Shown: positions 13,117 to 26,166 of the stretch, piece by piece
How positions within the stretch are numbered: position 1 is the first letter of the stretch
How the letters are laid out: each line of letters starts with the position of its first letter
NCBI RefSeq assembly: GCF_001660485.1
Contig: NZ_CP013979.1
Location: 4,030,001 to 4,094,000 of the forward strand
Length of the DNA stretch: 64,000 nt
Origin: Agromyces aureus
Lineage (GTDB): Bacteria > Actinomycetota > Actinomycetes > Actinomycetales > Microbacteriaceae
Direction of reading: 5' to 3'
Translations under genes and position numbers: made by a program
Notes under the pieces: generated by a model
Database searches by the model: none
What the model was told of the DNA's origin: nothing
The model's input: only the letters and a program-made list of their open reading frames with translations

Positions 13117-13485
13117 CTACGCGGGCGTCTGCTGGTGCGCCGCCACGTGCCAGGCGCCGTCGTCGTAGACGTACGTGGTCGACATGCGGAGGTTCGCGGT
13201 GTCGTCGCCACGGCGGGCGACCGCCCGGTAGACGACGATGCCCGCGCGATCGCCGAGACGGATCACCGCGGGCTCGTGCAGTTCGTAGGACTCCCACGGC
13301 GGCGTCGCGCGGAAGCGGGCGAGGATCTCGTCTCGACCGAGCGTCGCCCCCTCGACGACCATGAGGGCATCGCGGGTCATCGAGCGTTGGTAGTGCTCGC
13401 CGCCGCGACCGTCGAGGATCGCCTTCCATCCGGCGTGCTCTTCGTGCAACAGACGGGCGGGCAGATCATCGGTGATCTCGGTCAT
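13117..13485 (-). CDS. NTF2-like protein (DUF4440/SnoaL type)
   Basis: A 122-residue protein with the cone-shaped NTF2-like pattern. An N-terminal helix with HEEHAGWKAILDGRGGEHYQ is followed by LMVVEGATLGRDEILARF, and a C-terminal beta region ends in TTYVYDDGAWHVAAHQQTP. Members bind or convert small hydrophobic molecules or act as stress-induced proteins; the substrate here is unknown. It is a single gene that shares the palindrome at 13063 with the convergent TetR gene. Confidence 0.78.
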   Translation of the reverse strand: MTEITDDLPARLLHEEHAGWKAILDGRGGEHYQRSMTRDALMVVEGATLGRDEILARFRATPPWESYELHEPAVIRLGDRAGIVVYRAVARRGDDTANLRMSTTYVYDDGAWHVAAHQQTPA

Positions 13486-13655
13486 GGCGACAACGCTAAC
13501 CGCGATCGGATGCCGCGGCTAGGGCGTTCTCGACCCTGCCCCGGAGATTCTCGGCGACACGCCGATCCGGACCGGCGCCACGCCAGAGCGCCAGCGCGGA
13601 TCCGGAGTTCGGGCGGCGTCGGCGCCCGGCCGCGGCATCCGCCCCGCTGCCCTTC

Positions 13656-14672
13656 CTACAGCCAGCCCTTGCGCTTGAAGAGGCCGTAGAGCACGCCCGC
13701 GAAGGCGAGCATGAGTGCGAGGGCGAACGGGTAGCCCCAGGGCTCGTCGAGCTCGGGCATGTGCGTGAAGTTCATGCCGTAGATGCCGGCCACGAGGGTC
13801 GGCGCGAAGATGATCGCCGCCCAGCTCGACACCTTCTTGGCCTGCTCACTCTGGGCGACGGCCGCCTCGGAGAGCACCTTCGTCTCCTCGTTCTGGCGCT
13901 GCGCCACGAGCGTGGAGTGCACCTGCAGCGCGTTCTGCAGCAACTGGCGGAACGTGTCGCCGTGCTCGACGATGCGCAGCACGTGGTCCTTCACGTCGCG
14001 CAGGTACCGCTGCAGTTCGAGGTCGACCGCGTACTTCTCGAACCCGCGCTCGAGCGCGTCGAACATGCCGACGAGCGGGCGCGTCGCGCGCTGGAACTCC
14101 ATCACCTCGCTCGCAAGGTCGTAGATGCGACGCGTCACCTCGGGGTCGCCGGAGAAGAGCTGCTCCTCGATCTCGTCGATGTCGTTCTCGAGGCCCGCGT
14201 CGACGGGCGCGTACTCGTCGACGACCTCGTCGAGCACGGCGTAGAGCACCGCTTCGGGCCCCCTCGCCAGCAGCTCGGGCGAGGATTCGAGGCGGCGACG
14301 CACCTTCGCGAGGTCGGGCGACTCGGCATGACGGATCGTGATCGCGTAGTCGGGGCCGGTGAACACGTGCAGCTCGCCGAACTCGACCTGCTCGACGTCG
14401 TCGAGGTAGCGGGCCGGGCGCAGCACCACGAAGAGCGAGTCGCCGTAGCGCTCGAGCTTCGCGCGCTGGTGCCCCTTGCGGGTGTCCTCGACGGCGAGCG
14501 GGTGGAGGCCGAACTCGGCCGCGAGCGCGTCGAGTTCGGCGTCGGTCGGCCGGTAGAGCCCGATCCACACGAACCCGCCGTGCGACTCATGGGTCTCGAA
14601 GGTCTCCTCGAGCGAGGCGGGGGTGGCGACCCGGAGGCCGTCCTTGTAGATCGCATTGTCGACGACGGGCAC
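13656..14672 (-). CDS. corA: CorA-type magnesium/cobalt transporter
   Basis: A 338-residue pentameric channel for divalent cations, mainly Mg2+. A long cytoplasmic domain is followed by two C-terminal transmembrane helices, and the signature YGMNF ends the first of them (about residue 298). The protein ends with the basic GLFKRKGWL. The GTG at 14672 is chosen because the family begins with VVDNAIYKDG-like sequence, while upstream in-frame ATG codons would add an untypical Arg-rich leader. CAGACT lies six bases before this GTG, a weak -10-like match. The gene is divergent from the ebo operon. Confidence 0.92.
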   Translation of the reverse strand: MPVVDNAIYKDGLRVATPASLEETFETHESHGGFVWIGLYRPTDAELDALAAEFGLHPLAVEDTRKGHQRAKLERYGDSLFVVLRPARYLDDVEQVEFGELHVFTGPDYAITIRHAESPDLAKVRRRLESSPELLARGPEAVLYAVLDEVVDEYAPVDAGLENDIDEIEEQLFSGDPEVTRRIYDLASEVMEFQRATRPLVGMFDALERGFEKYAVDLELQRYLRDVKDHVLRIVEHGDTFRQLLQNALQVHSTLVAQRQNEETKVLSEAAVAQSEQAKKVSSWAAIIFAPTLVAGIYGMNFTHMPELDEPWGYPFALALMLAFAGVLYGLFKRKGWL

Positions 14673-14755
14673 CGCGTCAGTCTGCCACCTGACCCCGCGC
14701 GACGAGCGCCCGTTCGTCGGAACGGCGGCCTTCGGCGCCAGTGATCTTTTGCACC

Positions 14756-14806
14756 TGAACGTACGAATGTCGTTCATTGACACTGCGACTTTCTGCGAAG
14801 TAGTCT
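14756..14806 (+). promoter_or_regulatory. Promoter and upstream inverted repeat of the ebo operon
   Basis: TTGACA (14777-14782) and TAGTCT (14801-14806), with an 18-base spacer, form the best sigma-70-type promoter in the window. Directly upstream, TGAACG-N9-CGTTCA (14756-14776) is an inverted repeat that could bind a regulator next to the -35 element. The leader to the first gene is about 105 bases and shows no recognised riboswitch. Confidence 0.65.
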
Positions 14807-14920
14807 GCACATCAGATCGCAAGGCGGCGAAACCGAGGTGGGTTCAGCACTCTCGTCACCGGTGCGATCCGGGCCGGCACCCGCTGGCATCCGCACCGGT
14901 CGACGACGACGGAGGTCTGC

Positions 14921-16045
14921 ATGCTCCCCGCCCCGGTGATCGCTGCCGCCCTCGAACCAGCGCTCGAGCAGGGCCTCGAAGAACGCATCGACGACGCCCT
15001 CGGCGACGTCACCGCCCTCGCCGGCGCCCACTGGAACGAGATCGGGCGCCGCACCGAGATCGCTGGGCCCGAGATGGCGGACCTCGTTGCCGGCGCCCGG
15101 GCCGCCGACGGCGGCAAGTACCTGCGGCCCCGACTCGCGGCGGCCGCGTTTCTCGCGCACGGCGGCACGGATGTCGCGCTGCTGCGGCACGTCGCCGGCG
15201 CAGTGCAGCTCGTGCACCTCGCCCTCTGCGCCCACGACGACGTCATCGACGGCGATCGGGTGCGCCACGGCCGCCCGAACGTCATCGGCCGCACCGAGGC
15301 GAACACCCTCGCGGCCGGGCTCGGCGCTTCGGCCGCGATCCGCCAGGGCGAGGCGTCCGGCCTGCTCGCGGGCGACCTCGCGCTGAACGCCGCCGCCATC
15401 GCGCTCATCACGGCGCCCGCGCAGGACCGCGTACGCCTGCGTCTCGCGGCCGTCGCGCTCGACGCGATCGAGCAGACCGTCGCTGGCGAGCTGCTCGACG
15501 TGCGCAGCGAGACCCTGCCGCCCGAGCAGAGTCGGCCGCTGCTCGTCGCTCGGCTGAAGACGGCCGCATACAGCGTGACGCTGCCGTTGCAGCTCGGCGC
15601 GATCGCGGCGGGCGCCGACGGTTCGAGCACCGGCGACCCGGCGGAACTCGACCGTATCGAACGGGTGGGAACCGCGCTCGGCATCGCCTACCAGCTCGGC
15701 GACGACGACCTCGGACTGTTCGGCGCGACCGAGACGACCGGGAAGTCGACGATCTCCGACCTGCGCGACGGCAAGCGCACGGAGCACATCCGGCTCGCCC
15801 TCGAACGCGCCGCGCCGGCCGACCGCGCGCGCATCGTGCAGGCGCTCGGCTCGCCCGAGGCCGACGAGGAGGACGCCCGACGGGTCCGCGAGATCGTGAC
15901 GGCGACCGGTGCCCGCGCCTCGGTCCACGAGCTGATCCGCACCCACCTCGAGCTCGGCATCCGCACCGCCAGGGCAGAGCTGCCGGCCCAGCTCGCCGAG
16001 TATCTCGCCGGGCTCGCCCTGTCGCTCAGGCACCGCACGAGCTGA
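14921..16045 (+). CDS. Polyprenyl diphosphate synthase of the ebo cluster
   Basis: A 374-residue trans-isoprenyl diphosphate synthase. It has GGKYLRPRL for IPP binding (about residue 65), a first aspartate-rich motif HDDVIDGD (about residue 107) and a second, GDDDLG, near residue 265, followed by GKSTISDLRDGKRTEH. It condenses IPP with an allylic diphosphate. Ala at the fifth position before the first motif fits a product of C20 or longer (inference). As the first gene of the operon it would supply the prenyl donor for the UbiA enzyme encoded at 17560. A palindromic hairpin and a T-poor spacer follow. Confidence 0.9.
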   Translation: MLPAPVIAAALEPALEQGLEERIDDALGDVTALAGAHWNEIGRRTEIAGPEMADLVAGARAADGGKYLRPRLAAAAFLAHGGTDVALLRHVAGAVQLVHLALCAHDDVIDGDRVRHGRPNVIGRTEANTLAAGLGASAAIRQGEASGLLAGDLALNAAAIALITAPAQDRVRLRLAAVALDAIEQTVAGELLDVRSETLPPEQSRPLLVARLKTAAYSVTLPLQLGAIAAGADGSSTGDPAELDRIERVGTALGIAYQLGDDDLGLFGATETTGKSTISDLRDGKRTEHIRLALERAAPADRARIVQALGSPEADEEDARRVREIVTATGARASVHELIRTHLELGIRTARAELPAQLAEYLAGLALSLRHRTS

Positions 16046-16076
16046 GGATGCCGCGGCGCCAGCCCGCGACATCCGC
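16046..16076. repeat. Hairpin copy of the GGATGCCGCGG repeat inside the ebo operon
   Basis: GGATGCCGCGG and CCGCGACATCC face each other across a short loop immediately after the polyprenyl synthase stop. One C/T difference separates the arms. It is a diverged member of the palindrome family and might attenuate transcription into the rest of the operon. Confidence 0.65.
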
Positions 16077-16080
16077 AGGC

Positions 16081-16240
16081 CGCGAAGCACGACCCGCCAG
16101 GTACGACGCACGACCGAACAGACCAGAAGAACGCACCAGAAGAACAGACCGAAGACCAGACCAGACCAGACCAGAAGCCAAGCGAACACCGGCACCGGGC
16201 CCGCCCCGGACGCACGACCCCTCGATCGAAGGAGACCGAC
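16081..16240 (+). other. T-poor, A/C/G-rich spacer with CCAGA tandem repeats
   Basis: In these 160 bases only three are T. Four consecutive CCAGA units occupy 16156-16175, and AACAGACC/AGAAGAAC words recur around them. The RNA would be almost free of U and probably unstructured. It holds no gene and ends in the AAGGAG ribosome binding site of the inositol synthase gene. Confidence 0.75.
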
Positions 16241-17563
16241 GTGGAGCACCACGCCCAGCACGAGCCCGCCGCCCAGCCGACCGAGGCCGACGGGGGCGCC
16301 CGCGCCACCGAGTGGACCAGGGGTCGCGTGGGCCTCTGGTTGATCGGAGCACGCGGGTCGGTCGCGACGACCGTCGCGGTCGGCGTGCACGCCCTCGGCG
16401 CGCGCATCGCGCCGCCGACCGGCTGCACGACGTCGGGCCCGGGGTTCGCCGAGGTTCCGCTGCCCGGGTTCGACGAGATCGTCATCGGCGGGCACGACCT
16501 CAGCACCACGCCGGTCGGGCTGCGCGCCGAGCAGCTCGCCGCCGCGGGCATGATCCCCGCCGCGATCGTCGCGGCGGTGCGCGACGAGCTCGACGCCGTC
16601 GATGCCGAGGTACGGCCCGGCTACGACCCGTCGACCCACACGGGCAGCCAGTCCGAGGCCGTCGCGCGGCTCGCCGCCGACCTCGTCGACTTCCGCGAGC
16701 GGAACGGCCTCGCACACGTCACGGTCGTCGACGTGTCGTCGACCGAGCCGCTGCCGGCCGACCGCCCCGAGTTCCACGACCCCGCGCTGCTCGCGGCCGC
16801 CATCGCCGAGCCCGGGGCCGCCGTGCTGCCGCCCAGCTCGATCGCGGCCCTCGCCGCGGTCGAGGCCGGCGCCTCGTACGCCTGCTTCACGCCCTCGGCC
16901 GGACTCGGCCTGCCGGCGCTCCGCGCCATCGCCCGACCGCGCATCGCGTTCGCCGGGCAGGACGGCAAGACCGGCGAGACCCTGCTGCGCACGGTGCTCG
17001 CGCCCATGTTCGTGGAGCGCGGCATGCACGTGCTCTCGTGGGCCGGCGCGAACCTCCTGGGCGGCGGTGACGGGCAGACGCTCGCCGACCCCGAGGCCGT
17101 GCGAAGCAAGCTCGCGTCGAAGACGCGCGGCCTGCACAGCCTCGTCGGCGAGCACGTCGTCGCCCCGCTGCACATCGACAACGTGCCCGACCTCGGCGAC
17201 GTGAAGACCGCGTGGGACCACGTGCACGCCGAGGGGTTCCTGTCGAGCCGCATCACGCTGCAGACCACGTGGACCGCCTACGACTCCATGCTCGCCGCGC
17301 CGCTCGTGATCGACCTCGCGCGCCTGCTGTCGCTGGCCGGGGCCGCCGGGGTGCGCGGCGTCGTGCCGGCGCTCGGGAGCTTCTTCAAGGACCCGTGGGG
17401 CAGCGAGGTGCACGCGTTCGCCGACCAGTCGACGGCGCTCAAGTCATGGGCGGCCGACCTCGGCGAGCAGGTCGCGGGGCAGGATGCCGCGGGCGCCGCC
17501 GAGGGCCAGGCCGGCGCTGCGGCGCCCGGCGCCGACCCGGTGCCGATCGGCGGGGTGCGGTGA
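16241..17563 (+). CDS. Inositol-3-phosphate synthase (ebo-cluster type)
   Basis: A 440-residue NAD+-dependent enzyme expected to cyclise glucose 6-phosphate to inositol 3-phosphate. It shows an N-terminal nucleotide-binding loop LIGARGSVATT (about residue 34), FAGQDGKTGETLLRTVLAPMF, SWAGANLLGGGDG and DNVPDLGDVKTAWDHV, all inositol synthase signatures. The N-terminus differs from the ~360-residue actinobacterial Ino1 (VGNCAASLVQG-like loop), so this is probably not the housekeeping enzyme. GTG at 16241 has AAGGAG upstream. Its TGA overlaps the GTG of the prenyltransferase gene. In this operon it occupies the role that the EboD sugar-phosphate cyclase has in other ebo clusters (inference). Confidence 0.85.
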   Translation: MEHHAQHEPAAQPTEADGGARATEWTRGRVGLWLIGARGSVATTVAVGVHALGARIAPPTGCTTSGPGFAEVPLPGFDEIVIGGHDLSTTPVGLRAEQLAAAGMIPAAIVAAVRDELDAVDAEVRPGYDPSTHTGSQSEAVARLAADLVDFRERNGLAHVTVVDVSSTEPLPADRPEFHDPALLAAAIAEPGAAVLPPSSIAALAAVEAGASYACFTPSAGLGLPALRAIARPRIAFAGQDGKTGETLLRTVLAPMFVERGMHVLSWAGANLLGGGDGQTLADPEAVRSKLASKTRGLHSLVGEHVVAPLHIDNVPDLGDVKTAWDHVHAEGFLSSRITLQTTWTAYDSMLAAPLVIDLARLLSLAGAAGVRGVVPALGSFFKDPWGSEVHAFADQSTALKSWAADLGEQVAGQDAAGAAEGQAGAAAPGADPVPIGGVR

Positions 17564-18453
17564 CGACCGTCTCCGACGTCCTCGAACTGGTGCGCGCGCC
17601 GGCCGCGCTCACCGTGCTCGGCGACACCGCGGCGGGCGCCCAGGTCGCCGCAGGCGGCTTCGACCGGCGCGGATGGATGCTGCCGCTCGCCTCGGTCGCG
17701 ATCTACAGCGGCGGCATGGCCCTGAACGACTGGGCCGACCGCGACCTCGACGCCGTCGAACGGCCGGAGCGGCCGATCCCGTCGGGGCGGATCAGCCCCC
17801 GGCGAGCACTCGCGGTCGCCGCCGGGCTCGGTGCGGTCGGGCTCGCGTTGGCCGCGGCCGGCGGCGGGCGACGCGGACTCGCGGTCGCGGCGCCGCTCGT
17901 GGCATCCGTCGCGCTGTACGACCTGGTCGCGAAGCCCACCACGGCCGGCCCGCTCGCGATGGCCGCGTGCCGCGGACTCGACGTGCTCCTCGGCGCCGGC
18001 GGGTCGCCGCGGGCGCTGCCGGCGGCACTCGCGATCGCCGTGCACACGCTCGGCGTCACCGCGCTCTCCCGCGGCGAGGTGCACGGCGGCTCGGCCGCCG
18101 ACACCGCACTCTCGCTCGTCGCGACGGGCGCGGCCGCGGCCGCCGTCGACTCGGTGGGCCCCGGCGTGCAGACCGCTGCCGCGCGGCTCGGCGGTGCCGC
18201 CGGGTCGGCCGTCTACCTCGCCGCGGCACTGCCGGGGCAGTTGGCCGTCGTCGACGACCCCACGCCGAAGCGCGTACGCGATGCCACCCGGGCGGGCATC
18301 GGGTCGGTCGTGCCGTTGCAGGCGGCCATCGTCGCGCGGGGCGGCTCGCTCGCCATCGCGGCCGGCCTGATGGCGGTGCATGCGACGATCCGGCAGCGCG
18401 GCCGTCGTGGCCGGAAGCCCGGCACCGGGCCCGCCCGCGGAGACGTCACGTGA
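17560..18453 (+). CDS. eboC: EboC-like UbiA prenyltransferase
   Basis: A 297-residue integral membrane protein of the UbiA superfamily, which transfers a prenyl group to a polar acceptor. The first Asp-rich motif NDWADRDLDAVERPERPIPSGR lies at about residues 56-76, and the second (YDLVAK) near residue 125. Seven to eight hydrophobic helices follow. The phrase LTVLGDTAAGAQ and TALSRGEVHGG match my memory of EboC proteins. GTGA overlaps on both sides show translational coupling. The likely donor is the product of the polyprenyl synthase at 14921; the acceptor may be a cyclitol phosphate (inference). Confidence 0.88.
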   Translation: MTTVSDVLELVRAPAALTVLGDTAAGAQVAAGGFDRRGWMLPLASVAIYSGGMALNDWADRDLDAVERPERPIPSGRISPRRALAVAAGLGAVGLALAAAGGGRRGLAVAAPLVASVALYDLVAKPTTAGPLAMAACRGLDVLLGAGGSPRALPAALAIAVHTLGVTALSRGEVHGGSAADTALSLVATGAAAAAVDSVGPGVQTAAARLGGAAGSAVYLAAALPGQLAVVDDPTPKRVRDATRAGIGSVVPLQAAIVARGGSLAIAAGLMAVHATIRQRGRRGRKPGTGPARGDVT

Positions 18454-19334
18454 GCACGGACCTGCCCGGGGGCCTGCCCGATGCGCGGTTCACGCTCGGC
18501 TACGGCACGAACGGGTTCACGGATCATCCGCTCGACGACGCGATCACGGTGCTCGACGCGCTCGGTTACCGCGGTCTTGCGCTCACCCTCGGGCATCCGC
18601 ACCTCGATCCCTTCGCGAGCGACGCCGACCGTACGGCCGCGCGAGTGCGGCGCCGGCTCGACGATCTCGGCTGGCGGGTCGTGATCGAGACGGGCACGCG
18701 GTACCTGCTCGACCCGTTCCGCAAGCACCGCCCCAACCTGCTCGACGACGACGCGAGCCTGCGCGAGGCGTTCCTGCGCCGCGCCATCGACCTCGGCGCG
18801 ATCCTCGGCGCGGACTGCGTGTCGCTCTGGTCGGGCGTGCTGCCAGAGGGCGTCGAGCCGGGCCGGGCTCACGACCGCCTCCGCGTGCGCCTCGACGGGC
18901 TGGTCGACCAGGCCGCCGATGCGGGCGTCCCGCTCGCGTTCGAACCCGAGCCCGGCATGCTCGTCGAGACGGTCGCCGACGCCCTGGCGCTGCGCACCGA
19001 TCTCGGCGACCCGGATGCGCTCGGCCTCACGGTCGACCTCGGCCACTGCGTCGTCGTCGAGCCCGAAGGGGTCGTCGGCGCCCTGCGCGCCGCAGGTGCG
19101 CTACTGCGCAACGTGCAGGTCGACGACATGCTGCCCGTCGCCCACGAGCACCTCGAACTCGGCCGCGGGACGCTCGACCTCACCGCTGCCCTGCGCACGC
19201 TCGACGAGCTCGACTACCGCGGCCTCGCCGCCGTCGAACTCCCCCGCCACGCGCACGACGCCCCCGGCGTCGCCGCCCGATCGATGACCGCACTCGAGAA
19301 CGCCTGGAGGCACGATGCAGCACACGTGGACTGA
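18450..19334 (+). CDS. Sugar phosphate isomerase/epimerase-type TIM barrel
   Basis: A 294-residue protein of the xylose-isomerase-like (AP endonuclease 2) TIM-barrel superfamily. Metal-binding residues appear as LAFEPEPGMLVE (Glu, about residue 167), VDLGHCVVVEP (Asp-His, about residue 195), NVQVDDML and AAVELPR near the C-terminus. It probably isomerises, epimerises or dehydrates a sugar or cyclitol in the ebo pathway. Its start overlaps the eboC stop by GTGA, and its last 20 bases overlap eboA, so it belongs to the same translation unit. Confidence 0.85.
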   Translation: MSTDLPGGLPDARFTLGYGTNGFTDHPLDDAITVLDALGYRGLALTLGHPHLDPFASDADRTAARVRRRLDDLGWRVVIETGTRYLLDPFRKHRPNLLDDDASLREAFLRRAIDLGAILGADCVSLWSGVLPEGVEPGRAHDRLRVRLDGLVDQAADAGVPLAFEPEPGMLVETVADALALRTDLGDPDALGLTVDLGHCVVVEPEGVVGALRAAGALLRNVQVDDMLPVAHEHLELGRGTLDLTAALRTLDELDYRGLAAVELPRHAHDAPGVAARSMTALENAWRHDAAHVD

Positions 19335-20067
19335 CGATGCCGTGCGGCAGATCGCCGCAGACCCCGACCGCATCGCGGAGCTGTTCCCCGCCGCGGGCCG
19401 CGAGGTGGGGCGCGCGCCGCTCGCGCCGGAGACCGATCCCCTCGGGCTCACCGCCGGCACCGAAGACGACCTCGCCCGCGAGGCGCTCGTCGCGGCGCTG
19501 CTCGACGCACTCCCGCCCGCCGAGGCGGCGGCCGAGCTCGCCGACCTGTACCGCTACGGCGACGACGCCGAGCGGCGCGGGGTGCTGCGAGGGCTCGGTG
19601 CGGCCGAGGCCGCCGGTGAGTTCGCGACGATCGATGCGGCAGTCATCGAGCGTGCGGATGTCTCGGGCGGTGCGGATGTCGCAGGCTCGCCGCCCGCGGC
19701 ATCCGCACCGCCTGCGAACCTCGACCCCGTCGTCGCGGCCGGCCTGAGCCTGGTCGCCGAGGCGCTGCGCTCGAACGACCCGCGCCTGGTGGCCGCAGCA
19801 CTCGGCCCGTTCGCCGCCGCGCACCTCGACCAGCACGCCTGGCGGCACGGCGTGCTGAAGGCGCTGTTCATGGGCATCCCACTCGACGCCGTGACCGACC
19901 TCGACCGCCGTGCCGACGCCGAGGTCGCCCGCATGGCCGCCGGCCTCGTCGCCGAGCGCCGCGCGGCATCACGAGACGTGACCGACGACATGACCCGGCT
20001 CGCCGCCGGGTACGAGTCGGCGACCACCGAGAACACCCCGAACACCACCGACCCTACGGAGGACTGA
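19315..20067 (+). CDS. eboA: EboA domain protein
   Basis: A 250-residue protein. The C-terminal part, SNDPRLVAAALGPFAAAHLD, then AWRHGVLKALFMGIPLDAV and RADAEVARMAAGLVAERRAA, is the diagnostic EboA segment. A low-complexity linker near residues 113-132 (ADVSGGADVAGSPPAASAPP) is encoded by three copies of the GGATGT/GCATCC repeat word. No catalytic motif is known. EboA is the family that defines ebo clusters. The gene begins inside the end of the TIM-barrel gene and ends one base before eboB. Confidence 0.9.
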   Translation: MQHTWTDDAVRQIAADPDRIAELFPAAGREVGRAPLAPETDPLGLTAGTEDDLAREALVAALLDALPPAEAAAELADLYRYGDDAERRGVLRGLGAAEAAGEFATIDAAVIERADVSGGADVAGSPPAASAPPANLDPVVAAGLSLVAEALRSNDPRLVAAALGPFAAAHLDQHAWRHGVLKALFMGIPLDAVTDLDRRADAEVARMAAGLVAERRAASRDVTDDMTRLAAGYESATTENTPNTTDPTED

Positions 20068-20068
20068 C

Positions 20069-20950
20069 ATGCGCATCTTCGACCCGCACATCCACATGAC
20101 CTCGCGCACGACGACCGACTACCGCGCCATGTACGCCGCGGGTGTGCGCGCGCTCGTCGAGCCGTCGTTCTGGCACGGCCAGCCGCGCACGAACGTGGGC
20201 AGCTACACCGACTACTTCGACGCGCTCATCGGGTGGGAGCGGTTCCGAGCGGCGCAGTACGGCATCCGGCATCACGCCACGATCGGCCTGAACCCGAAGG
20301 AGGCGAACGACCCGCGCTGCCGCGAGGTGCTCGACGTGCTGCCCCGCTACCTCGCGAAGGACGGCGTCGTGGCCGTCGGCGAGACGGGCTACGACTCGAT
20401 GACGCCCGAGGAGGACGAGGTCTTCGCCCGCCACCTCGAGCTCGCACTGAAGCACGGCCTGCCCGCGCTCGTGCACACGCCGCACCGCGACAAGGCCGCC
20501 GGCACGCGCCGCACGCTCGACGTCGTGCGCGAGTCGGGCCTGGCACCCGGCCTGGTCGTCGTCGACCACCTCAACGAGACCACGGTGGCGGATGTCGCCG
20601 ACAGCGGCTGCTGGATGGGCTTCTCGATCTACCCCGACACGAAGATGGACGAGCACCGGTTCGTGGCGATCCTGCGCGAGTACGGCACCGAGCGGATGCT
20701 GGCGAACAGCGCAGCCGACTGGGGGCACTCCGACCCGCTGAAGACGCTCGCGACCGCGCACGCCATGCTCGACGCCGGGTTCACCGCCGACGACGTCGAC
20801 CTCGTGCTCTGGCGCAACCCGGTCGAGTTCTACGGGCAGAGCGGGCGGCTGAACCTCGACCCGGTGCCCGGGTTCGAATCGAGCGATGCGGATGCCGCGG
20901 GGCCGGTGTCGTTCGAGGGCAACTCCGTGCTGCGGGGGGTGCCGGCCTGA
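20069..20950 (+). CDS. eboB: TatD-like metal-dependent hydrolase EboB
   Basis: A 293-residue amidohydrolase-fold protein. The metal ligands are visible as DPHIHM at residues 5-10, GETGYD (Glu, about residue 111), LVHTPHRDK (His), VVDHLNE (His) and SAADWGHSD (Asp), the order seen in TatD enzymes. The substrate is not established. It starts one base after eboA and its TGA overlaps the eboE ATG. Residues near the C-terminus (SSDADAAGP) are encoded by another GGATGCCGCGG repeat word. Confidence 0.9.
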   Translation: MRIFDPHIHMTSRTTTDYRAMYAAGVRALVEPSFWHGQPRTNVGSYTDYFDALIGWERFRAAQYGIRHHATIGLNPKEANDPRCREVLDVLPRYLAKDGVVAVGETGYDSMTPEEDEVFARHLELALKHGLPALVHTPHRDKAAGTRRTLDVVRESGLAPGLVVVDHLNETTVADVADSGCWMGFSIYPDTKMDEHRFVAILREYGTERMLANSAADWGHSDPLKTLATAHAMLDAGFTADDVDLVLWRNPVEFYGQSGRLNLDPVPGFESSDADAAGPVSFEGNSVLRGVPA

Positions 20951-22182
20951 TGGAACTCTCGTACTGCACCAACGTGCACCCGGCCGAGGATCTCGACGGC
21001 GTGCTCGACCAGCTCACCCGGTATGCGGGCCCCGCGCGCCGTGCCGCGGACCTCGACCGGCTGGGTGTCGGCCTCTGGCTGCCCGCGCCCCTCGCACGCC
21101 GACTCGCGACCGACGCCGCCGCGCGCGACCGCCTGCGCACCGGACTCGAGGCCGAGGGACTCGAGGTGCGCACGATCAACGCGTTCCCCTACACCGCGTT
21201 CCACGCCGAGATCGTGAAGCTCGACGTGTACCGACCCGACTGGACCGACCCCCGGCGGGCCGAGTTCACGCTCGACTGCGCTCGGGTGCTCGCGGACCTG
21301 CTGCCGGAGGGCGCTGACGGCAGCATCTCCACCCTGCCCCTCGGTTGGCGGTTCCCGTGGACGCCCGTCGAGGACGACCGGGCCACCGCGGCGCTCTCGC
21401 GCGTCTCAGTAGAGCTGCGGGGGCTGCGCGAACGCACGGGCCGCACGATCCGCCTCGCGATCGAGCCCGAGCCGGGCTGCGTGCTCGACACCGTCGACGA
21501 CATCCTCGGGTGGCTGGCCCCGCGCCTCGGCCCGACCGCCCTCGGCCGCATCGATCCCGAGTTCGTCGGCATCTGCCTGGACACGTGCCACCTCGCGACC
21601 TCGTTCGCCGACCCGATCGAGACGGTGCGGCGGGTGGGCGCCGCAGGCATCCGCATCCCGAAGATCCAGGCTTCGGCCGCCCTGCACATCGACGACCCGG
21701 CGGCTCCCGAGGCGCGCGAGGCGCTGCGAGCGTTCGCCGAGCCCCGCTACCTGCACCAGACACGGGCGCTCGCACCCGACGGCGTCGTGATCCGCGTCGA
21801 CGACCTGCCCGACGCGCTCGACGAGGCCGACGGGCTCCGCACCGACGGCCCATGGCGCGTGCACTTCCACGTGCCACTGCACCTCGAGCCCGACGAGCCG
21901 CTCGCCTCGACGACCGACGTGCTGCGCCGCGCGGTGGCCGCGGTGCGCGAACTGCCCGACGGCGACTCCGCCCACCTCGACGTGGAGACGTACACGTGGT
22001 CCGTGCTTCCCGGCGGCGCCGGCGACCTCGTCGAGGGCATCGCCGCCGAGCTGCGCTGGGCGACGGAGGAGCTGCTCGGCGGCCGGCAGGAGACGGAACC
22101 AGCCGAAGCGGAACCCGCCGAGACGCGCACGACCGACGCCGGCCGTGCCGCGGCATCCGCCCCTCGGATGGCGACGGCATGA
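20950..22182 (+). CDS. eboE: Metabolite traffic protein EboE
   Basis: A 410-residue TIM-barrel protein. The opening MELSYCTNVHPAEDLDGVL and the segments RTINAFPYTAFH, STLPLGWR, LAIEPEPGCVLDT and GICLDTCHLATSF are characteristic of EboE. Glu in EPEP and Asp-His in DTCH are probable metal ligands, as in xylose-isomerase-like enzymes. The C-terminal 30 residues are low complexity and end with AAASAPRMATA, encoded by a CCGCGGCATCC repeat at 22148, so the repeat extended or replaced the tail. ATGA overlap with the next gene. Confidence 0.9.
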   Translation: MELSYCTNVHPAEDLDGVLDQLTRYAGPARRAADLDRLGVGLWLPAPLARRLATDAAARDRLRTGLEAEGLEVRTINAFPYTAFHAEIVKLDVYRPDWTDPRRAEFTLDCARVLADLLPEGADGSISTLPLGWRFPWTPVEDDRATAALSRVSVELRGLRERTGRTIRLAIEPEPGCVLDTVDDILGWLAPRLGPTALGRIDPEFVGICLDTCHLATSFADPIETVRRVGAAGIRIPKIQASAALHIDDPAAPEAREALRAFAEPRYLHQTRALAPDGVVIRVDDLPDALDEADGLRTDGPWRVHFHVPLHLEPDEPLASTTDVLRRAVAAVRELPDGDSAHLDVETYTWSVLPGGAGDLVEGIAAELRWATEELLGGRQETEPAEAEPAETRTTDAGRAAASAPRMATA

Positions 22183-23582
22183 CCCGGGTGCTGCTGCTCG
22201 ACGTCGTCGGGCTCACCACCCGTGCGCTGTCGCACATGCCGCGGCTTCGAGCGCTCGCGGCCGGTGGGACGACCGCGAAGCTCGGCACCGTGCTGCCCGC
22301 CGTCACCTGCAGCGTGCAGTCGACCATGCTCACGGGGCTCGCTCCGGCGCAGCACGGCATCGTCGGCAACGGCTGGTACCACCGCGACATCGGCGAGGTG
22401 AACCTCTGGCGCCAGCACAACGCGCTCGTCGAGGGCGAGAAGGTGTGGGAGACCGCCCGCCGGCGCGAACGGGGCTTCACGACCGCGAACGTCGGCTGGT
22501 GGTACGCGATGGGCGCGAGCACCGACGTGACCGTGACCCCGCGGCCGATCTACCACGCCGACGGACGCAAGTCGCCCGACGCGTACACCCGGCCGCCCGC
22601 GCTGCACGACCGGCTCGTGGGCGAGCACGGCGAGTTCCCCCTCTTCCAGTACTGGGGGCCGACCGCGTCGCTCGCCTCGACGCGGTGGATGGTCGAGGCG
22701 ACGCGATCGGTGCTGCGCGACGAGGGGTCCGACCTCGTGATGGCGTACCTGCCGCACCTCGACTACGACCTGCAGCGCTTCGGGCCGGACTCTCCCGAGG
22801 CCGACCGGGCGGCCGCCGAGCTCGACGCGGTGCTCGCTCCCCTGCTCGACGATGCGGTCGCGGCCGGCGCGACCGTCGTCGCGGTCGCCGAGTACGGCAT
22901 CGCGCCGGTCGACACGCCCGTCGACGTCAACCGCGCGCTGCGTCGCGCCGGGCTGCTCGAGGTGCACACTCAGCAGGGTCGTGAACTGCTCGATCCGATG
23001 ACCTCGCGCGCGTTCGCGGTCGCCGACCACCAGGTGGCGCACGTCTACGTCGCCGATCAGGCCGACGTGCCGCGCGTGCGCGACCTGCTGCGGGGGCTCG
23101 ACGGCGTCGACGAGGTGCTCGACCGTGAGGCCCAGGCGCGGTACGGCCTCGACCACGCGCGCTCGGGCGAACTCGTCGTCGTCGCCCGGCCCGGCGCCTG
23201 GTTCACCTATTACTACTGGCTCGACGACGCCCGGGCGCCCGACTTCGCGCGCGGCGTCGACATCCACAAGAAGCCCGGCTACGACCCGGCGGAGCTGTTC
23301 TTCGACCCCGCCGACCGGTTCGCGAAGGCCCGCGCCGGGCTGGGGCTCGTGCGCAAGAAGCTCGGCCTGCGCTACTCGATGAAGGTCGTGCCGCTCGACG
23401 CGACGCACGTACGCGGCAGCCACGGGCGACTGCCCGAGCACGAGGCCGACACGCCGCTGCTCATCTGCTCGGATGCCGCACTGCCCTTCTGGGATGCGGC
23501 ACCCGAGCTCGTGCCCGCCGCGCGCGTGCGCGACCTCGTGCTCGAGGCGGCCCGGGTGCCCGAGCCGGCGGCGGCGACGTGA
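22179..23582 (+). CDS. eboF: EboF-like phosphodiesterase/nucleotide pyrophosphatase
   Basis: A 467-residue member of the alkaline phosphatase superfamily (type I phosphodiesterase/nucleotide pyrophosphatase). Motifs in order are LLLDVVGL (Asp), VLPAVTCSVQSTMLTG (Thr/Ser nucleophile), MAYLPHLDYDLQRFG (Asp-x3-His type), VVAVAEYGI and THVRGSHG. It may hydrolyse a phosphodiester or diphosphate intermediate of the pathway. It overlaps eboE by ATGA and idi by GTGA. The symbol rests on family and cluster position; I could not compare it directly with cyanobacterial EboF. Confidence 0.82.
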   Translation: MTRVLLLDVVGLTTRALSHMPRLRALAAGGTTAKLGTVLPAVTCSVQSTMLTGLAPAQHGIVGNGWYHRDIGEVNLWRQHNALVEGEKVWETARRRERGFTTANVGWWYAMGASTDVTVTPRPIYHADGRKSPDAYTRPPALHDRLVGEHGEFPLFQYWGPTASLASTRWMVEATRSVLRDEGSDLVMAYLPHLDYDLQRFGPDSPEADRAAAELDAVLAPLLDDAVAAGATVVAVAEYGIAPVDTPVDVNRALRRAGLLEVHTQQGRELLDPMTSRAFAVADHQVAHVYVADQADVPRVRDLLRGLDGVDEVLDREAQARYGLDHARSGELVVVARPGAWFTYYYWLDDARAPDFARGVDIHKKPGYDPAELFFDPADRFAKARAGLGLVRKKLGLRYSMKVVPLDATHVRGSHGRLPEHEADTPLLICSDAALPFWDAAPELVPAARVRDLVLEAARVPEPAAAT

Positions 23583-24139
23583 TCGGCGAAGGCCTCGTCG
23601 AGGAGGTCGTGCTCCTCGACGTGGCCGGTTCGCCGATCGGCACGTTCGACAAGGCCCTCGTGCACGGCCCCGACACCCCGCTGCACCTCGCGTTCTCGTG
23701 CTACGGCTTCGATCAGGACGGGCGGATGCTGCTGACCCGCCGTTCGCTCGCCAAGCGCACGTGGCCCGGCGTCTGGACCAACGCGTGCTGCGGGCATCCA
23801 CTGCCCGGCGAGGATCCGGTGGATGCCGTGGCCCGCCGCGTGCGGACCGAGCTCGGCGTCGAGCCGCGCGACGTCCGGCTCGTGCTGCCCGACTTCCGAT
23901 ACCGGGCCGTCGATGCGAGCGGCGTGGTCGAGCACGAGGTCTGTCCGGTGTACCTCGCCGAGCTGTCGACCGACCTTGCGCCCGACCCCGCAGAGGTCGT
24001 GTCGTGGGAATGGATCGCGCCGAGCGACTTCCTCACCGCCGCCGAGACGGCGCCGTTCCTGCTCAGCCCGTGGAGCGTGCTGCAAGCGGCCGAGTTCCGC
24101 CGATCGGGGCTCCTCGGCCAGCGCCGAGCGTCCGGCTGA
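23579..24139 (+). CDS. idi: Isopentenyl-diphosphate delta-isomerase, type I
   Basis: A 186-residue Nudix-fold enzyme that interconverts IPP and DMAPP. The catalytic cysteine lies in TNACCGHP (residues about 68-75) and the catalytic glutamate in EHEVCPVY near residue 120; SWEWI and FLLSPW complete the family pattern. It starts with GTG overlapping the eboF stop, so it is the ninth gene of the operon. With the polyprenyl synthase at the other end, it shows that the operon carries its own supply of prenyl donor. Confidence 0.93.
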   Translation: MIGEGLVEEVVLLDVAGSPIGTFDKALVHGPDTPLHLAFSCYGFDQDGRMLLTRRSLAKRTWPGVWTNACCGHPLPGEDPVDAVARRVRTELGVEPRDVRLVLPDFRYRAVDASGVVEHEVCPVYLAELSTDLAPDPAEVVSWEWIAPSDFLTAAETAPFLLSPWSVLQAAEFRRSGLLGQRRASG

Positions 24140-24237
24140 TCGGGCGGGGGCTGGGGAGAAGAACCCGTCGGCGTCGGTGGGCGTGGAGTACGCTGGACCG
24201 CCGGTCAACCCAACCTGTTCCGGCAGATGGAGTAGCC

Positions 24238-26166
24238 GTGGACCCGGCCCAACTCGCCCTGGACCCTGCGGAGCTCCACCGACTCGCAGAATGCGCGAAG
24301 GAGCCGATCCGCACCCCTGGCTCGATCCAGCCGCACGGAACCCTGTTCGGGGTGGACCTCTCCGGAGTCATCTCGGTCGCGAGCGAGAACGCGAGCGAGT
24401 GGTTGGGGCACCGAGTCGGCGAGATCGGCAATGAAGAGCTCGAGTACGCGGTGCGCACCGGTCGCGCCATCGACCCCGTACGGATCACATGGAACGACGT
24501 CGTCTCCGACGCGATCGTGCACCGTGCCGACGGACTGACCCTGGTCGAGATCGAGCCGCTGCCCGAGGGCGACGAGTACGCCCGCACCGCAGTCGTGGGT
24601 GCCATCATCCGCGCCTCGCGCGCGACCTCCGAAGCCGAGCTCCGAGAGATCGTCGCCGCCGACATCCGCGAGATCACCGGCTTCGATCGGGTCATGATCT
24701 ACCAGTTCCACGACGACGGGCACGGCGAGGTCGTCGCCGACGAACGAGCCGACGACCTCGACTCCTACCTCGGACTCCACTTCCCGGCCTCGGACATCCC
24801 GACCCAGGCACGCGCGCTGTACATCTCGAAGATCGGCCGCACGATCGCGAGCACGGACCCCACGGGCATCCCGCTCCTCGCGCTCGCAGACGATCCGCAG
24901 ACCATCGACCTGTCGGATGCCGAGCTGCGGAGCGTCTCGCCGTACCACCTGCAGTACATGCGCAACATGGGGCAGGCCTCGACGTTCTCGCTCTCCATCG
25001 TCGAGAACGACCGGCTCACCGGCATGATCACCTGTGCGCATCGCAGCGAGCGGCGCCTGCCCGTGCTGCTGCGCCGCGCCCTCGAGGTGCTGGCCGGGCA
25101 GATCGCCCTCCAGCTCACGTCGATGCACGAGATCAACCGGCTCCAGCACATGGTCGACGTGCGATCCAGACGCGCAGCGCTCCTTGCGCCGCTCTACGCG
25201 TCCGACGACATCCACACGGCCCTGCTCGGCGGGGTCGACACCGTGCTCGACCTCGTGCCCGCCGACGGCGTGCTCGTGCGCATCGGGGGCACCTCCAGGA
25301 TGAAGGGCGAGGTTCCCCCGCTCACGGCGATCCTCCGGGTGATCGATCGACTGGCGGGCGCGCCGTTCGCGTCCGAATGCCTCCGCACCGACCGGCCCGA
25401 CATCGCCGACCTGCTGCCCGGGGTCGCCGGGCTCCTGATCGTGCCGTTGGTCGAGACCGGCGACGCACTGGTCTTCTTCCGCGGCGAGGTCGTGCACGAC
25501 ATCTCGTGGCTCGGCGACCCGAGCGGTGGCAGCCGACCCGACGGGCTCTCGCCTCGCACCTCCTTCGCCGCGTGGAAGCGCACGGTGCGGGATCGCAGCG
25601 ATGCCTGGGGCACCCTCATCGAGGAGACCTCCGAACTCGCCCATGAGCTCGAGATCGCGCTCCAGCGGCGTGCCGAGGCCAGATTGGCCGAACTCGCGAT
25701 GCGCGACGCCCTGACGGGCCTCTACAACCGTCGCTACCTCGTCGAGCGGCTCGCGACCCGTGGCCCGGTCGGCGAGGGGGGCAAGGCGATGCTGTTCGTC
25801 GACCTCGATGACTTCAAGATGGTGAACGACACGCACGGCCACGATGCCGGCGACGCGGTCATCCTCGAGGTCGCCAGGCGTCTCGTCGAGTCCTCGCGCG
25901 GGCAGGACGACGTGGTGCGGCTCGGCGGCGACGAGTTCGTGGTGCTCCTCGACGGCGTCGTCGGCGAAGACGTGGAGCAGATCGCCCAGCGCCTCGTGCA
26001 GTCGATCGCGCTGCCGATCTCGACGAACCGCGGGTGGGTCTCCATCACCGCCTCGTGCGGGGTCGTGGTGGCCGATCCGGGTTCGCCGCGCGGCGGACTC
26101 CTCGAGGCCGCGGACGCGGCGATGTACCGGGCGAAGCACGCCGGACGCAACCGGGTCTCGCACTGA
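24238..26166 (+). CDS. Bacteriophytochrome with GGDEF output
   Basis: A 642-residue red/far-red photoreceptor coupled to a diguanylate cyclase. PAS (about 15-110) contains Cys19 in ECAKEPIRTPGSIQPHG, the usual biliverdin attachment site. GAF (about 130-300) carries PASDIP near residue 186 and SPYHLQYMRNMG with His237. PHY (about 310-470) has the tongue motifs WLGDP and LSPRTSFAAW. The C-terminal GGDEF domain (about 480-642) has an intact RLGGDEF at 563-567 and should make c-di-GMP. GTG at 24238 has TGGAG upstream. No heme oxygenase gene is nearby, so biliverdin must come from elsewhere. An EAL gene lies 0.7 kb downstream. Confidence 0.93.
   Translation: MDPAQLALDPAELHRLAECAKEPIRTPGSIQPHGTLFGVDLSGVISVASENASEWLGHRVGEIGNEELEYAVRTGRAIDPVRITWNDVVSDAIVHRADGLTLVEIEPLPEGDEYARTAVVGAIIRASRATSEAELREIVAADIREITGFDRVMIYQFHDDGHGEVVADERADDLDSYLGLHFPASDIPTQARALYISKIGRTIASTDPTGIPLLALADDPQTIDLSDAELRSVSPYHLQYMRNMGQASTFSLSIVENDRLTGMITCAHRSERRLPVLLRRALEVLAGQIALQLTSMHEINRLQHMVDVRSRRAALLAPLYASDDIHTALLGGVDTVLDLVPADGVLVRIGGTSRMKGEVPPLTAILRVIDRLAGAPFASECLRTDRPDIADLLPGVAGLLIVPLVETGDALVFFRGEVVHDISWLGDPSGGSRPDGLSPRTSFAAWKRTVRDRSDAWGTLIEETSELAHELEIALQRRAEARLAELAMRDALTGLYNRRYLVERLATRGPVGEGGKAMLFVDLDDFKMVNDTHGHDAGDAVILEVARRLVESSRGQDDVVRLGGDEFVVLLDGVVGEDVEQIAQRLVQSIALPISTNRGWVSITASCGVVVADPGSPRGGLLEAADAAMYRAKHAGRNRVSH

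Follow-up and report, generated by a model that had tools for sequence, protein, structure and literature searches.

The window considered here is a stretch of 64,000 nucleotides of the complete 4.37-Mb chromosome of Agromyces aureus (NZ_CP013979.1, positions 4,030,001 to 4,094,000). On its + strand, at 14921-24139, it carries an ebo-type operon of nine genes in which the cyclase is of the myo-inositol-phosphate synthase (MIPS) type. Protein families were assigned by Pfam and NCBIfam profile scans, the NCBIfam scores being set against the cut-off of each model. The first gene (14921..16045) encodes a polyprenyl diphosphate synthase of 374 aa (PF00348, 122 bits), and it is followed by the MIPS-type cyclase (16241..17563, 440 aa), where both MIPS domains were recognized (PF07994, 139 bits; PF01658, 103 bits). 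Next come a UbiA-superfamily prenyltransferase of the SCO3242/EboC type (17560..18453, 297 aa), a xylose-isomerase-like TIM barrel (18450..19334, 294 aa; PF01261, 113 bits), an EboA-domain protein (19315..20067, 250 aa), EboB of the TatD-like metal-dependent hydrolase family (20069..20950, 293 aa; PF01026, 55 bits), the TIM barrel EboE (20950..22182, 410 aa), EboF of the alkaline-phosphatase superfamily (22179..23582, 467 aa; PF01663, 213 bits) and a type-1 isopentenyl-diphosphate (IPP) isomerase (23579..24139, 186 aa; 251 bits, cut-off 127). All nine genes that the initial annotation placed in one direction are thus present on the + strand.

The cluster was recognized as an ebo operon by EboE (430 bits, cut-off 250) together with EboB and EboF, and EboD (PF01761) was found neither in the cluster nor near it. 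No curated EboB or EboF model of NCBIfam matched the window proteins. The EboA domain scored 137 bits (cut-off 50); on the full EboA-family model the same protein reached 56 of 320. EboC scored 144 on the NCBIfam EboC model, below its cut-off of 250, and 319 on the SCO3242-type model NF045897, above its cut-off of 260.

The cyclase and its linkage to ebo genes

The initial annotation took the cyclase for an enzyme of the inositol synthase type, and the structural comparison bears this out. The nearest solved structure is the archaeal Ino1 1u1i (197 bits), which we take to come from Archaeoglobus fulgidus, while 1gr0, presumably the M. tuberculosis enzyme, gave only 38 bits. Residues K290, K294, K322 and K383 align with lysines 274, 278, 306 and 367 of Ino1, which we assume to be the catalytic ones; deposited Ino1 variants carry Ala at two of these positions, and all four lysines are invariant in the 15 aligned MIPS of ebo loci. 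On the actinobacterial Ino1 model TIGR03450 the window enzyme scored 24 bits (cut-off 638), and its closest named relative is that of A. allii (91% identity). Judged by its sequence, it is of the inositol-synthase type, and neither the housekeeping Ino1 of actinobacteria nor EboD.

A tree was built by a quick method from 75 chosen sequences: 34 of the 80 loci retrieved with the MIPS query, 13 of 16 fetched ebo loci, 11 other MIPS, seven Ino1, nine plasmid-borne sequences and the window. In this tree, which is not rooted and has SH-aLRT values as its only support, 48 actinobacterial sequences (40 linked to ebo and eight without ebo) form one clade with support 98, and the seven Ino1 sequences are set apart behind a very long branch (support 100). 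Grouping with the housekeeping enzyme, which the initial annotation had named as evidence against its view, therefore did not occur. The haloarchaeal and Gemmatimonadota MIPS of ebo loci fall outside the actinobacterial clade, which suggests that the association of MIPS with ebo may have arisen on more than one occasion.

The linkage was evaluated in 396 actinobacterial genomes, 18 of which have EboE above the cut-off. The MIPS query found some match in 99 genomes; the top 17 matches score 290-949 bits, the next one 195, and those 17 belong to 17 of the 18 EboE genomes, each less than 5 kb from EboE. MIPS is therefore tied to ebo genes, and the situation in which it would rarely stand beside them, also mentioned beforehand as a counter-case, was not encountered. 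The eighteenth genome (G381) carries in its cluster a sugar phosphate cyclase (PF01761, EboD) instead of MIPS, and in the 17 MIPS-form genomes every PF01761 match lies away from the ebo locus. Of 19 loci retrieved around EboE in other actinobacteria, 16 show the gene order MIPS-EboC-TIM-EboA-EboB-EboE-EboF.

Among the best-scoring 80 of 579 related MIPS loci, the full set (EboC, TIM barrel, EboB, EboE and EboF with MIPS) was present in 63, and at least four of these five ebo proteins in 65; six loci had none, and several of the others are cut contigs. EboC follows MIPS in 69 loci, at a median distance of 21 bp, and EboD was found in none of the 80. Within Agromyces, EboE was above the cut-off in 25 of 60 genomes. 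The variant is real and, as the initial annotation did not notice, extends well beyond this genome: it is the usual ebo form of actinobacteria, widespread and apparently undescribed.

As regards EboD elsewhere in the A. aureus genome, within another complete ebo cluster, this possibility was rejected: the genome has a single EboE and a single PF01761 gene, at 2.14 Mb, 1.9 Mb away from the ebo operon. Some atypical loci deserve mention. Genome G279 (L042) has a decayed ebo locus, where EboE matches as two separate fragments and neither MIPS nor the TIM barrel was found within 19 kb. The second ebo copy of genome G128 (L025) lies near genes for an FAD oxidoreductase and an inositol-monophosphatase-family protein. 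Loci L113 (Micromonospora tulbaghiae), L109 and L114 have an ebo-clade MIPS without ebo genes; in L113 it adjoins a DegT-type aminotransferase, AMP-binding ligases and a carrier domain (Pfam), possibly an aminocyclitol pathway.

The MIPS form is also present outside actinobacteria. A plasmid record of Gemmatirosa kalamazoonensis (Gemmatimonadota) has EboE, EboB, EboF, EboC, MIPS and a TIM barrel 47% identical to an actinobacterial one. Three of the four haloarchaeal MIPS regions inspected (five were listed) have EboB, EboC, EboF and two TIM barrels; these plasmid loci (L228, L234 and L235, from Halobaculum, Halocatena and Natronococcus) showed no EboA and no EboE near the cut-off, and the Halomarina region showed no ebo genes. 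The EboD form was observed in plasmid records of Azospirillum, Ketogulonicigenium, Roseivivax and Mycetohabitans. Records of a plasmid collection from Streptomyces, Embleya and Nonomuraea (H1-H31) carry EboE, and on many of these records MIPS is present too; plasmids can therefore carry the cluster.

The TIM barrel, whose residues E165, D196, H199 and E263 are invariant, travels with MIPS and not with EboD, a pairing that the initial annotation missed. It was found in all 17 MIPS-form genomes, while in tblastn searches of five EboD-form loci no match reached 35-40 bits. Furthermore, Roseomonas, Hymenobacter and Methylobacterium have MIPS together with a 44-49% identical TIM barrel in the absence of ebo genes. 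The Ketogulonicigenium EboD locus has another annotated sugar isomerase nearby. MIPS with a related TIM barrel and no ebo genes was seen at L233, L239 and L240; L233 and L239 have annotated YcaO, Gfo/Idh and PIG-L deacetylase genes nearby, L233 also a family-4 glycosyltransferase, a gene set that to us recalls mycothiol-type assembly. In locus L040, EboA is fused to the TIM barrel. An actinobacterial EboA fused to a xylose-isomerase-like domain is described in PMC5133447, and this fits the TIM barrel of the window operon.

Prenyltransferase, prenyl supply and EboF

EboC has the Asp-rich motif of UbiA proteins (N-D-x-x-D-x-x-x-D), with N56, D57, D60 and D64 invariant in all 17 aligned EboC. The nearest solved relative of its profile is the digeranylgeranylglyceryl phosphate (DGGGP) synthase 6m31 (E 6e-12, over residues 5-136 only), and Nostoc EboC is likewise likened to DGGGP synthase in PMC6282210 (2018). 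In an unrooted tree of 26 EboC sequences, without three outgroup rows, five EboC of EboD-form clusters lie on one side of a branch (100/100), and that of the actinobacterial EboD-form genome G381 sits among proteobacterial EboD-form EboC. The actinobacterial MIPS-form EboC group with that of L025 (99/98), and Gemmatirosa joins them (96/92). It should be noted that this pattern is also expected from linked inheritance of whole operons.

In total, the A. aureus genome encodes four polyprenyl synthases, five UbiA proteins and two type-1 IPP isomerases, with one synthase and one isomerase side by side near 2.63 Mb. We inspected 18 of 23 further Agromyces loci above the cut-off; at least two of them, L290 and L302, seem to be identical to the contigs of L092 and L094. 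The prenyl synthase precedes MIPS as first gene in all 18, and the isomerase follows EboF in 12. The operon's own prenyl supply is therefore real for the genus, adding a fourth polyprenyl synthase and a second type-1 isomerase. Outside Agromyces a prenyl synthase is linked in part of the loci. Over all 63 complete loci, Agromyces or not, it was detected by tblastn in 14, and by a stricter gene-cluster count in nine, versus none of 20 random windows (defined below). The residue before its first Asp-rich motif, a position that may bear on the chain length of the prenyl product, is A or G in Agromyces and F in Micromonosporaceae, in the aligned rows. The ebo-linked synthases fall in several parts of the synthase tree, where long branches meet and the joins are weak, and in the EboD-form locus L028 (G381) a type-2, non-homologous IPP isomerase (320, cut-off 281) overlaps the end of EboF. 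Apparently, prenyl-synthase and IPP-isomerase genes were recruited to ebo more than once.

For EboF, 73 sequences, drawn from bacteria and archaea and from the two cluster forms, were aligned to phosphonoacetate hydrolase, whose metal-ligand pattern served as the reference. The Thr nucleophile is kept in the 72 sequences with a letter at that position, and the equivalents of Asp 195 and His 415 are also kept. The equivalent of His 215 is Q in 71 and L in two sequences, that of Asp 250 is E and that of His 251 is Y in all 73; in the window these altered ligands are Q199, E238 and Y239. The first Asp of the site varies (D 53, N 12, L 3, C 2, gap 3), and a D-H-Q motif at 283-285, which may belong to the site, is invariant. 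The usual two-metal ligands of the alkaline-phosphatase superfamily are thus missing from all 73 sequences. Because the metal site is rebuilt, release of the product by EboF-type hydrolysis, as the initial annotation proposed, is unsafe, and the altered site warns against treating EboF as a standard phosphodiesterase. For its substrate, PMC5133447 (section 3.4.3) goes no further than proposing that it contains phosphate.

With respect to the layout of the operon, 4-bp ATGA/GTGA overlaps occur at four of the eight junctions and not at most of them, as had been stated. The remaining four are a 195-bp gap between prenyl synthase and MIPS, a 20-bp overlap, a 1-bp gap and a 1-bp overlap. The start formerly assigned to the locus, 14756, is no gene start; what begins there is an inverted repeat with perfect 6-bp arms, TGAACG-(9)-CGTTCA (14756..14776, 21 bp in all), a possible operator. 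The stretch 14740-14830 upstream of the prenyl synthase is similar in the window, A. allii and genome G268, and the repeat is perfect only in the window among the six upstream sequences compared. A scan of 13400-24500 gave no promoter-like (sigma-70-type) and no terminator-like site. Downstream, on the same strand, lies a gene for a phytochrome-type protein (PAS_2, GAF, PHY) with a GGDEF domain (24238-26166).

The product, alternatives and relation to known systems

The exchange of the cyclase is solid, and a prenylated cyclitol is the most economical reading of the product; we assign a probability of about 0.6 to the operon being a dedicated pathway for such a compound. This part of the earlier interpretation stands as the best reading, while the hydrolytic release by EboF does not, so that the interpretation as a whole is partly supported. 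The gene content, synteny, clade structure and conserved active-site residues are observed, whereas all substrates, the sequence of reactions, the product and what it does are inferred, as follows. MIPS would convert glucose 6-phosphate into inositol phosphate or a near isomer, and the accompanying TIM barrel would rework the ring, both together replacing the EboD of classical ebo clusters. EboC would join a prenyl chain to the ring in the membrane, perhaps as an ether like its closest solved relative, with the neighbouring prenyl synthase and IPP isomerase securing the donor. EboB and EboE would complete the head group, EboA may serve as a scaffold for the proteins, and EboF may act on a phosphate- or lipid-bearing intermediate by its non-standard site. 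The product could serve as a membrane or carrier lipid, often beside genes of sugar uptake or oxidation.

The ebo operon was named in 2016. That one ring-forming enzyme gave way to an unrelated enzyme of the inositol-synthase type, the rest being kept, offers independent support for a cyclitol in the product and favours the idea that ebo clusters make a cyclic sugar alcohol with an isoprenoid chain attached. It also names inositol as a precursor that can be labelled and fed, and deletion followed by lipid analysis should be straightforward because this form is common in culturable actinobacteria.

Several observations weigh against a prenylated cyclitol. The MIPS-form EboC of haloarchaea stand apart from the actinobacterial ones as a separate, third lineage closer to the EboD side of the unrooted tree, so EboC is not cleanly split by cyclase. 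In the 19 kb fetched around the second ebo copy of G128, EboC-TIM-A-B-E-F are present but MIPS is not, and the eight MIPS without ebo are nested at no fewer than three places within the 48-member clade, a pattern that would fit loss of ebo genes or reuse of the enzyme. The type-1 isomerase was found near ebo in one of the 80 loci, itself from Agromyces, and is rare outside the genus. In addition, classical EboC homologues farnesylate quinolines in vitro and not a cyclitol, and the acceptors described in the relevant part of PMC9235831 are aromatic, with no cyclitols among them.

A first alternative, which we regard as possible with perhaps one chance in four, is that the cluster is part of sugar oxidation, its lipid or isomerases serving the uptake or oxidation of extracellular sugar and not a secreted natural product. 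Six sugar families were considered (ROK, ribose-type ABC ATPase, permease, binding protein, Gfo/Idh/MocA and glucose/sorbosone dehydrogenase), and the comparison set was 20 random 20-kb windows of five genomes, one of which overlapped an ebo locus and was swapped for a hand-picked window. At least two of the six occur in 37 of the 63 complete loci, from 10 actinobacterial families, and in none of the 20 random windows, although the families were defined on ebo loci themselves. In representatives of these neighbours, Pfam recognized ABC_tran, Peripla_BP_4, GFO_IDH_MocA, GSDH with PKD, ROK, and ThuA with 3-keto-disaccharide hydrolase. Among the 18 Agromyces loci, 11 have sugar genes next to the operon, and these are arranged in two ways, upstream in five loci and downstream in six. 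These neighbours of its relatives are not visible in the window, and the initial annotation missed them; they are absent from 26 of the 63 complete loci and from the window itself. Moreover, according to PMC6282210, cyanobacterial ebo affects scytonemin. Two of the three haloarchaeal MIPS-ebo loci (L234 and L235) have annotated ThuA, ABC-transporter or PQQ sugar dehydrogenase genes alongside, which favours the sugar connection. On a plasmid of Ketogulonicigenium vulgare, a bacterium that oxidises sugars in the periplasm, the EboD-form cluster L231 has two Gfo/Idh/MocA genes directly upstream.

Somewhat less probable is that EboC prenylates an aromatic acceptor, the cyclitol being separate, for instance a later polar group or a cofactor. 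When membranes were assayed, three EboC homologues of the flavobacterial type did farnesylate 8-hydroxyquinoline-2-carboxylic acid (PMC9235831), but the acceptor panel of that report, as described, was aromatic, and the actinobacterial EboC belong to another NCBIfam subfamily. Furthermore, no aromatic-pathway gene recurred when the 19 and 80 loci were clustered (families in at least five loci).

We consider it similarly doubtful that the MIPS-like protein makes another ring, be it some other inositol isomer or a cyclitol phosphate with a five-membered ring. The synthase of five-membered cyclitol phosphate 6k96 belongs to the same superfamily (27 bits), and the aminotransferase and ligase genes beside the Micromonospora clade member L113 suggest that clade MIPS serve specialised metabolism. 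However, the window enzyme is much closer to archaeal Ino1, and all four lysines are present.

That MIPS is the cell's ordinary inositol supply, present in the operon by accident, was rejected as very improbable: it is the only PF01658 gene of its genome, but no MshA (best match 149 bits, cut-off 462.5) and no PI-phosphate synthase (at most 31 of 170 on the CDP-alcohol transferases) was above the cut-off there, a second MIPS exists elsewhere in 14 of the 17 MIPS-form genomes, and the Agromyces genome G225, which lacks EboE, lacks any match to the window MIPS query as well. The three genomes without a second MIPS are those of the two Agromyces and the 82%-complete G318. Within the MshA and PI-phosphate-synthase searches, no other inositol-requiring function is known from the A. 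aureus genome. Its three CDP-alcohol transferases are PgsA-like (143, cut-off 109), ClsA-like (212, just under 240) and without assignment; the third, a CDP-alcohol-phosphotransferase-like protein of 339 aa (L263, at 1.77 Mb), is a loose end for inositol demand elsewhere.

Going beyond the prenylated cyclitol, we tentatively propose, as a speculation less likely than that reading, that ebo clusters are modular lipid factories whose head-group cyclases can be exchanged, with EboD in one lineage and MIPS plus TIM barrel in actinobacteria, haloarchaea and a Gemmatimonadota, and that the MIPS form makes a prenyl-ether inositol lipid, by a route like that of archaeal membrane lipids, which takes part in sugar uptake or oxidation on the outer side of the membrane. 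If true, this would join the reported link to scytonemin-precursor export with the sugar genes.

Overall, the operon is a widespread variant of the known ebo system. With the ebo of eustigmatophyte plastids, Bacteroidetes and cyanobacteria (as presented in PMC5133447 and PMC6282210) it shares EboA, EboB, EboE, EboF and an EboC-like UbiA protein. It differs from classical ebo in having MIPS and the TIM barrel instead of EboD, an SCO3242-type EboC, and a prenyl synthase and IPP isomerase built into the operon. The isoprenoid-cyclitol idea was proposed earlier for the EboD form in those two papers, where the word "inositol" does not occur; in the open-access papers searched (subscription papers and preprints were outside this scope), we found no paper joining inositol-phosphate synthase with ebo. 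Archaeal Ino1 (1u1i) has the same fold family and the four lysines but differs in sequence (about 35-40% in related loci) and in genomic setting. Actinobacterial Ino1 (TIGR03450) shares the Pfam domains, but forms a separate clade and a model whose cut-off the window enzyme falls far short of. Finally, the model NF045897, which matches the window EboC, is named for SCO3242 of Streptomyces coelicolor. PMC3610822 lists SCO3242 as a putative transferase and SCO3243 as a myo-inositol phosphate synthase, both counted as calcium-dependent-antibiotic genes. S. coelicolor thus probably holds the MIPS/EboC pair, and the MIPS form probably exists there under another label.

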